Shown: positions 25,150-35,835 of the stretch, piece after piece
Layout of the letters: each line of letters opens with the position of its first letter
Numbering within the stretch: position 1 is the first letter of the stretch
From: Bacillota bacterium
GTDB taxonomy: Bacteria; Bacillota; UBA4882; UBA10575
Direction of reading: 5' to 3'
Length of the DNA stretch: 50,307 nucleotides
NCBI GenBank assembly: GCA_012727425.1
Contig: JAAYHQ010000007.1
Span: 1-50,307, forward strand
Translations under genes and position numbers: made by a program
The notes under the pieces: generated by a model
Seen by the model: only the letters and a program-made list of their open reading frames with translations
Told to the model about the DNA's origin: nothing
Databases searched by the model: none

Positions 25150-25178
25150 TTGCATTTGGATAAATTCTATGGTAATAT
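25150..25178 (+). promoter_or_regulatory. Promoter of the 25185-25384 RNA
   Basis: TTGCAT (25150-25155), 17-nt spacer, TAATAT (25173-25178). The expected start near 25185 coincides with the first base-paired hairpin. Confidence 0.65.
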
Positions 25179-25184
25179 AGTGGT

Positions 25185-25384
25185 ACATTCTTCAGTGGTA
25201 ATTACCCTATCCTGAAGAATGGAGAGCGCCTCAGGCGTAAGGGCCCTACGGCTGAAGCAGCTCGCCTCCCTCTTGACCACGCCGGCAGTCAGAGGTGAGT
25301 GAAATCAATCAATTATTATTCCAAATCATTAAAATAAACTTTTCAATTTAATTTTCGCCACCGTTCAGGGTGGCTCTTTTCTTT
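25185..25384 (+). ncRNA. Probable structured RNA, class not recognised
   Basis: About 200 nt bounded by a promoter and a terminator and without an open frame. The 5' end forms a perfect 10-bp hairpin (25186-25195 with 25212-25221) with a GGTAATTACC dyad in its loop. Then come CGCC-TCA-GGCG and GCTG-AAG-CAGC mini-hairpins enclosed by GGAG/CTCC. A CTCGCC...GGTGAG hairpin holds an inner TGAC/GTCA stem. An AT-rich single-stranded tract precedes the terminator. I compared it with the common riboswitch classes, 6S, SRP and tmRNA from memory and none fits. It could be a small RNA or a leader for the PHP-domain gene 107 nt further on. Confidence 0.55.
25357..25384 (+). terminator. Terminator of the structured RNA
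   Basis: 6-bp GC stem (25357-25362 with 25369-25374) and a TCTTTTCTTT tail. Confidence 0.8.
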
Positions 25385-25491
25385 GCCCAAAAACGGTCAA
25401 ACCCATCGTAAAACACGGCATCCTCCCCACATCTTTTCTCCCCGATTGCCAATAATAATGAAGAAACCTCTACACGCAGGAGCGAATGATA

Positions 25492-26250
25492 ATGCCTTTT
25501 CGGATTGATCTCCATGTCCATACGCGGGAAACCAGCCCATGCGGGCGCACGGCCGGACGCTTGGTGGCCCAGTTATACAAAAAAGCCGGTTATGACGGAA
25601 TTGTCATTACCGACCATTATAACCGGGGGTTCTTCCGTAAGTTTCCCGCTTCCTTACCCTGGTCCGCCCGGATTGACCTCTTTCTCCGGGGTTACCGTGG
25701 CGCCCGGGAGGAAGGGGAAAAAATTGGTTTAACGGTTTTATTGGGGATTGAGGTAAAGTTTGTCGATTCACCGCAGGAGTTTTTGGTCTACGGGATCGAT
25801 GAAACTTTCCTTAAAACACACCCCGAATTGTACAAGCTGGGACTGGCGAAATTCCGGCAATTGACCAAGGAATTTTCCACCGGTCCGGAAATACTAATCT
25901 ACCAGGCTCATCCTTTTCGCCCGGGGATCACGCCCGCTCCCCTGGCCCTGATTGACGGTATTGAAGTCTACAACGGTAATCCCCGCCAAAATTCCAACAA
26001 TGAGCGGGCGCTCGCTTTTGCCCGGCAGCATAACCTGCGCATGATCTCCGGTTCTGATTTTCATCGCCGTCCTGACCTGGCGCGCGGTGGCCTGATTCTC
26101 CCCGAAGCGGTTACAGACGCCCGTGGACTGGTCCGCGTCTTAAAACAAAACGAAGGGATCCGGTTGATTACGACCGAGCACACTCCCTTCTCCTTTTTAC
26201 GACTGGTCACCGTTACCGGCAATTGGTTAAAAAGTTGTTTTCTTAAATAA
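25492..26250 (+). CDS. PHP-domain metal-dependent phosphoesterase
   Basis: PHP superfamily hydrolase, 252 residues, likely trinuclear-metal phosphoesterase; substrate unknown. Metal-ligand motifs are DLHVHT near the start, ITDHYNRG, LGIEVKF, YQAHPFRP and SGSDFHRRPD. The ATG at 25492 lies 9 nt after AGGAG; the ATG at 25486 is too close. It is the only gene downstream of the structured RNA. Its stop overlaps the convergent fabZ-like gene by 8 nt. Confidence 0.9.
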   Translation: MPFRIDLHVHTRETSPCGRTAGRLVAQLYKKAGYDGIVITDHYNRGFFRKFPASLPWSARIDLFLRGYRGAREEGEKIGLTVLLGIEVKFVDSPQEFLVYGIDETFLKTHPELYKLGLAKFRQLTKEFSTGPEILIYQAHPFRPGITPAPLALIDGIEVYNGNPRQNSNNERALAFARQHNLRMISGSDFHRRPDLARGGLILPEAVTDARGLVRVLKQNEGIRLITTEHTPFSFLRLVTVTGNWLKSCFLK

Positions 26251-26688
26251 ATGAAGCTTTCTGATCGGCGGCAAGCATACAACTGAACACTGCTTCGCAG
26301 GTTTTCTTGTCGCCAATATAACAGCAGCCTTTGAACTTGCCGGCGCGGGCACGTAAACGCACCAGTTCCACTTCGATCCGCAGTTGATCGCCGGCCAGTG
26401 CCGGTGTGCGGAACCGGACATGTTCAATATTGGAGAAGTAAGCCAGCTGTCCTTTGTTCTCTTCGGAGTTGAGAATCAAAAGGCAGCGGTCTGCGCCATG
26501 GCTTCAACTTGAAGAACCCCTTGCATTGGATAGAGTCCCCCGTAATACTCCTGGGAAAACACCTCATTGACCGTGATATTCTTAATCGCCACCACTCTTT
26601 TCCCCGGTTCCACCTCGATCACACGGTCAATAAGTAAAAATGGGAAACGGTGTGGTAAGACTTTCTTGATTTCGGTAATATCCAGCAA
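26243..26688 (-). pseudogene. fabZ: FabZ-like 3-hydroxyacyl-ACP dehydratase, frameshifted
   Basis: Two adjacent frames together give one complete FabZ-like hot-dog protein of about 148 residues. The first (26688 down to about 26478) covers the N-terminus with [18 protein letters not shown] and [10 protein letters not shown]. The second continues LNSEENKGQLAYF to the end. The break sits in a T4 run (plus-strand AAAA, 26478-26481), and one extra T would restore the frame. In addition the catalytic His of the FabZ GHFPG loop is Tyr48 here, although the Glu (E62) remains. The TTG start has GGGGGAG at 6-nt spacing. It may be a decayed gene, a sequencing error, or a non-catalytic paralogue. Confidence 0.8.
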
Positions 26689-35149: not shown

Positions 35150-35820
<671 letters not shown>

Positions 35821-35835
35821 TATCCTTTCTATGTA

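Follow-up and report, generated by a model that had tools for sequence, protein, structure and literature searches.

What kind of molecule, if any, is made from positions 25185-25384 of a stretch of 50,307 nucleotides of DNA from a Bacillota bacterium (hereafter the window)? The sequence-only reading of this locus had called it an unclassified structured RNA with its own promoter and terminator, and had left two alternatives side by side, a stand-alone RNA and a leader of the PHP-domain gene that follows. Comparison with related genomes, as described below, makes it very probable that the locus encodes a stand-alone, trans-acting structured RNA of about 200 nt; how such an RNA might act is a matter on which several explanations compete.

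A probable RNA gene with its own promoter and terminator

The elements picked out from the letters alone (TTGCAT-17-TAATAT, a hairpin at the predicted +1 at 25186, GC hairpins and a terminator) are all present in the sequence (Table 1), and the GC hairpins said to follow the first prove to be two further GC-rich hairpins 3′ of P1, after which comes an A+U-rich stretch. The window RNA folds at -61.6 kcal/mol (z = -4.1), and none of 200 dinucleotide shuffles folds as well. No tRNA overlaps 25185-25384, and the statement that the region has no open frame holds in substance, the exception being a 27-aa ATG frame (25219-25302) whose ATG is absent in relatives such as L006 and L008 and in the paralogs.

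Table 1. Features of the RNA locus in the window; identities are mean pairwise values over eight type-A copies (copies of the window's type) from the same genus
Feature	Position	Strand	Identity	Remarks
Region farther upstream			0.54-0.56	
Promoter	25150..25178	+	0.81	-35 TTGCAT 25150-25155, 17-nt spacer, -10 TAATAT 25173-25178
P1, 5′ hairpin from the predicted +1	25185..25221	+	0.66	10-bp-plus; from the fold
P2, long irregular hairpin	25224..25263	+	0.89	GAGC/GCUC base, variable extension, 4-bp tip stem CGUA/UACG
P2 tip loop, A-GGGCCC	25240..25246	+		self-complementary hexamer; candidate kissing loop 1
P3 hairpin	25266..25299	+	0.96	most conserved part
GCCGGC palindrome in P3 loop	25281..25286	+		candidate kissing loop 2; 40/40 copies class-wide
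A+U-rich single-stranded linker	25300..25356	+	0.70	unpaired in the fold
Intrinsic terminator	25357..25384	+	0.91	GCCACC-GTTCAG-GGTGGC and T-rich tail
Region after the terminator			0.40	

The two ends of the transcription unit are credible because comparable elements recur across copies of the RNA, and not from single-sequence scans: the promoter scan at its thresholds did not report the TTGCAT/TAATAT pair, and the generic terminator scan, taken by itself, gave no significant excess (1 found against 0.8 expected). In most copies a -10-like box lies just 5′ of P1, and TTGC is often present 17 nt before that box; 3′ of the linker, a script found a hairpin and T-run in 37 of the 40 copies; the terminators of L008 and L111 are visible by eye although the script missed both, and in L018 none is visible by eye or script. 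Among the type-A copies of the genus, identity in the promoter region stands well above that farther upstream, stays above it as far as the terminator and then drops, which is the profile of a self-contained RNA gene. Both the promoter and the intrinsic terminator are conserved and the conservation ends at both, so that comparison places the boundaries of the gene there.

Relation to known RNAs

The designation as unclassified has stood up to the covariance search against Rfam that had been suggested for it. When the whole window was compared with Rfam 15, the only families at gathering score were tRNA and PyrR, both elsewhere (the PyrR binding site, RF00515, lies at 35715-35823 on the minus strand with 61.1 bits, and another PyrR site was seen near the copy of the RNA in genome G021, at L151:642-737). 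Over the RNA region itself, with E up to 10, the best match scored 24.3 bits where its family's gathering score is 88; over the paralog loci there was nothing on the RNA, and at the other loci a match to MicX (21.1, the gathering score being 75) lay on the opposite strand. Matches of this kind, seen at relaxed thresholds, were taken to be at chance level. A small literature search found no published description of the family, which is undescribed in Rfam 15.

Several known RNAs bear comparison. The 6S RNA (RF00013) is of similar length, forms its own transcription unit, is present in one or two copies per genome and occurs in the same genomes, but it is one long bulged rod, in contrast to the separate hairpins of the new RNA. 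Identity with 6S RNA was rejected: RF00013 matches lie elsewhere, in the window's genome (G000) at C13:31757-31940 and not on C25 or C73, and true 6S RNA was found at a separate locus in 29 of the 31 genomes searched. It was also observed that class genomes such as G003, G005, G007, G008 and G010-G013 carry two 6S copies each, one of about 100 bits and one of about 55-70 bits. The raiA motif RNA is likewise structured and stand-alone, but has no covariance match to the new RNA. The short loop of the retroviral dimerisation initiation site carries a GC-rich self-complementary hexamer beside unpaired bases, an analogy of loops for which no homology is claimed. OLE, GOLLD and ROOL, which are also stand-alone structured bacterial RNAs, are large and form RNA-only homo-oligomers, in contrast to raiA, which was resolved as a monomer (PMC12286853). 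These three are far larger than the ~200-nt RNA, the Rfam searches found no sequence or covariance relation of it to them, and its oligomers are only predicted.

A family found in one class

A nucleotide search of 101 genomes gave a match in every same-genus genome and weaker ones in same-family genomes, and most of the matching genomes had a second match elsewhere. Three covariance models extended this picture. Model R1, run on 29 genomes of the class, detected the RNA in each of the 16 genomes of f1, the family to which the window belongs, in G016 (f2) and, in two copies, in G018 (f4), with weaker matches in f5. These f5 matches score 17 to 46 bits, and each of them except L115 shows by eye a promoter-like box, P1, GAGC/GAGT, the loop, P3 and a terminator; L115 (G028) looks coding and was discarded as a false positive. 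Of the 30 f1/f2 copies, 28 were recovered in the correct orientation by model R2, which was built from f4 and f5 copies only; in 139 kb it made neither false nor antisense matches, and it added G021 to the copy-bearing genomes. Model R3, for which the same-genus type-A copies were left out and 28 rows used, found the window copy at 53.4 bits (E = 1.8e-13) along with the other copies. Altogether, 40 full copies were collected from 26 of the 29 genomes of the class, with no trusted copy in G017, G023 and G028, and comparison of these copies shows them to be one family.

In the rest of the phylum, 398 genomes were searched with R1, R2 and R3 under stricter filters, and nothing convincing came to light: R1 made one match, R2 none, and R3 nine weak ones at E up to 0.01, where about four would be expected by chance. 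The R1 match (G280) and five of the R3 matches (G323, G207, G289, G225 and G328) look coding and are without the promoter/terminator frame, and the remaining four have E values of 0.0066-0.0093. An exact-core 16-mer scan of 84,980 species genomes returned true matches that include Hydrogenispora sp. and Bacillota MAGs; 16 other records scored low with R1, on matches that mostly did not reach beyond the 16-mer, and were judged chance. Viral contigs gave no match. As far as sampled, the family appears confined to the class that contains the Hydrogenispora-like MAGs.

Fold and compensatory changes

The overall order of elements is P1, a long P2 with a 7-nt loop, P3, an A+U-rich linker and the terminator, and the strong conservation and compensatory changes in related genomes by which the sequence-only reading had proposed to judge its RNA were both found. 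In a 30-copy alignment, 90.8% of the cells are paired and 21 of the 29 pairs show changes on both sides; the covariation is 0.454, compared with 0.216 after shuffling and at most 0.158 when partners are slid, a control in which at most 44% of the cells are paired. P3 contributes 8 doubly changed pairs out of 11, with 95% of its cells paired in this alignment, and in P1 all 7 class-wide pairs have both-side changes.

Constrained folding of the 40 copies gave P2 a common plan, namely the GAGC/GCUC base, a variable extension, in many cases an internal loop rich in G and A, then a short tip stem and the 7-nt loop. Across the class, pairing in the 10-pair P2 helix amounts to 90-91%, and 7 of the pairs have changed on both sides, in alignments that were fitted to the R2 structure, itself trained on f4/f5 rows only. 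In alignment A5 the same-genus type-A rows are misaligned and its use is confined to counting, A6 being the cleaner set; alignment A2, which antisense hits contaminate, was left out. A different hairpin, P2a (GCGYC/GRCGY), covaries within f1; as a universal structure it was rejected, since the other families lack it and share the long P2 instead. In several f1 copies P2a and the long P2 come out near-equal in energy, so that P2a may represent an alternative fold or a transient one. The comparison shows P1, the long P2 and P3 as the fold of the family. As a separate observation, AGGTTGT or AGGTTTT recurs by eye in the type-B and f5 linkers, between P3 and the terminator, and might be a binding site.

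Palindromic loops and a possible self-association

Two of the loops are GC-rich palindromes, and it is these that suggest how the RNA might act. The P2 loop hexamer is GGCGCC in 26 of the 40 copies, GGGCCC in 9, GACGUC in 3, and GGUGCC and GACGCC in one each, and it is self-complementary in 39; the sole exception is GACGCC, in the second copy of G018 (L122). Paired with itself, the hexamer gives 99.0% standard cells, compared with 85.6% after shuffling (none of 500 shuffles reached the observed value) and no more than 77% with slid partners, so that self-complementarity appears by comparison to have been maintained. The five hexamer types need 5 changes on the tree, and independent compensated switches from palindrome to palindrome are therefore few, about three; by our own arithmetic, about 35-40% of random per-position letter combinations, taken type by type, would also be self-complementary, which makes the P2 signal suggestive and not decisive. 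The P3 palindrome was counted in f4 and f5 copies as well, these having been recovered by profile model and not by the exact 16-mer. Since it never varies, it cannot covary, and it could equally be a protein site.

Loops of this kind have been met before: palindrome-switching loops are reported for OLE (L9.3) and GOLLD (L21a), where switching at adjacent loop positions served as an argument for symmetric intermolecular contacts (PMC12286853), and the P2 loop resembles them in passing from one palindrome to another. A pseudoknot between the two loops of one molecule was ruled out by inspection, as the P2 loop changes while GCCGGC stays constant, and the P2 and P3 hexamers are not complementary to each other. 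A possible complementarity of the P3 loop to a stretch of 16S rRNA was set aside on the ground that the matching AGTC is not kept in the f5 copies; of these MAGs, G019 alone yielded a 16S sequence, a partial one.

A plausible sequence of events would begin with a sigma-70-type promoter giving a transcript that terminates intrinsically at about 200 nt and folds into P1, P2 and P3; the palindromic P2 loops of two RNA copies (GGGCCC in the window copy) would then kiss, with P3 perhaps adding a second loop-loop contact through GCCGGC, and the dimer would form a two-fold symmetric scaffold whose exposed A+U-rich linkers are free for protein or target RNAs. Self-association through kissing loops is moderately supported as the best mechanism; transcription in the cell, dimerisation and a role of the complex are inferred. 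The whole statement, that of a stand-alone trans-acting RNA which associates with itself through kissing loops, is a tentative one that we regard as quite possible. In a more specific version, the RNA would form a small homodimer or oligomer through both palindromes, and paralogs with incompatible P2 palindromes would form separate homodimers. The paralogs of the window's genus carry GGGCCC and GGCGCC, which are mismatched at two central positions; G009, G010, G012 and G014 have GGCGCC in both paralogs, so incompatibility of the paralogs is not general. The specific version is rather unlikely.

The self-association proposed here has to be weighed against a stand-alone RNA that binds protein, as a sponge or scaffold, with the GC-rich loops as protein or ligand sites and the palindromes incidental. 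The full invariance of GCCGGC in the P3 loop is what protein sites often show, conservation is much higher in P2 and P3 than in P1, and the RNA occupies fixed positions, once or twice per genome, in the manner of a housekeeping RNA; protein binding by itself, however, leaves unexplained the changes in the P2 loop that keep it self-complementary, and we consider this explanation possible though somewhat unlikely. Next comes an antisense small RNA whose A+U-rich linker, perhaps together with the loops, pairs with mRNAs while P1-P3 mainly stabilise the molecule. It would account for the RNA having its own promoter and terminator, and for a linker that within the genus is better conserved than the sequence beyond the terminator, yet conservation peaks in P2 and P3 and not in the linker, and no single linker sequence is common to both paralogs and the other families, which leaves this role distinctly unlikely.

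Paralogs and gene neighbourhood

The window's family usually has two syntenic paralogs, the type-A copy of the window and a second, type-B copy, which in the window's genome lies on the minus strand of contig 73 (26277-26399 of G000) and has the same layout: promoter, P1, the GAGC...GCTC hairpin, P3, linker and terminator. In three f1 genomes (G004, G013 and G015) the models found one copy only; in G013 the contig ends within the type-A copy (L011). Comparison of positions indicates that two paralogs at fixed places were already present in the ancestor of most of the family. Type A lies in most of f1 upstream of a PHP-domain gene with a weak CehA/McbA match, and also adjoins ychF (TIGR00092) or pheS/pheT-like genes, the latter named by reading translations. 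Type B comes after ahcY and an amidohydrolase gene and before a gene of the aminoacetone-oxidase family, nrdR and an nrdD-like gene. The f5 copies mostly follow sigK, and the genes after them differ (IMP-dehydrogenase-like, nrdR, AMP-ligase-like); a RibD-like gene is also among those downstream of paralog and other-family copies. At the f5 loci L124, L126, L127, L128, L130 and L131, where sigK precedes the RNA, the neighbourhood is conserved and includes prfB-like and penicillin-binding-like genes.

These contexts bear on the second of the alternatives first offered, that of a cis-acting leader (a riboswitch or attenuator) of the PHP-domain gene. The distance of 107 nt given for that gene agrees with a PHP frame whose start, at 25486 or 25492, leaves about 101-107 nt between it and the terminator, and in 12 f1 genomes a PHP gene follows the type-A copy in the same direction at about 80-210 nt. 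Against this, the copies do not share one same-direction downstream gene or pathway: the paralog and the copies of other families are followed by unrelated genes, or by genes facing the other way (as happens after one copy in each of G010, G014, G009 and G018), and conservation ends at the terminator. With downstream genes that are unrelated or opposite-facing, the RNA is therefore better seen as standing alone than as the leader of one gene; the first alternative is favoured and the second is very improbable. At L046 (G008) the RNA has a PHP-domain gene on each side, both in the same direction, possibly by local duplication. Elsewhere in the window, a fabZ-like gene (26243-26688, minus strand) is split into two frames of 78 and 70 aa where relatives have a single frame of about 148-155 aa, a frameshift that may be real or a sequencing error.

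Chance secondary structure or a sequence remnant without a functional RNA would fit the generic terminator scan, which is not above chance here, but is hardly credible in view of the 40 copies, which show extensive compensatory changes, keep their synteny and are conserved within clear bounds.

Significance

The RNA represents a new family without an Rfam counterpart, near-universal in one little-studied class that is so far known mostly from MAGs, and, judged by its conservation, it is probably important to the members of that class. Natural RNA-only homo-oligomers have to date been demonstrated for a few bacterial RNAs of very large size (PMC12286853). If the loops of the new RNA do pair from one molecule to another, they would make it a small and tractable natural homo-oligomer of RNA only, and its paralogs would provide a built-in test of specificity.
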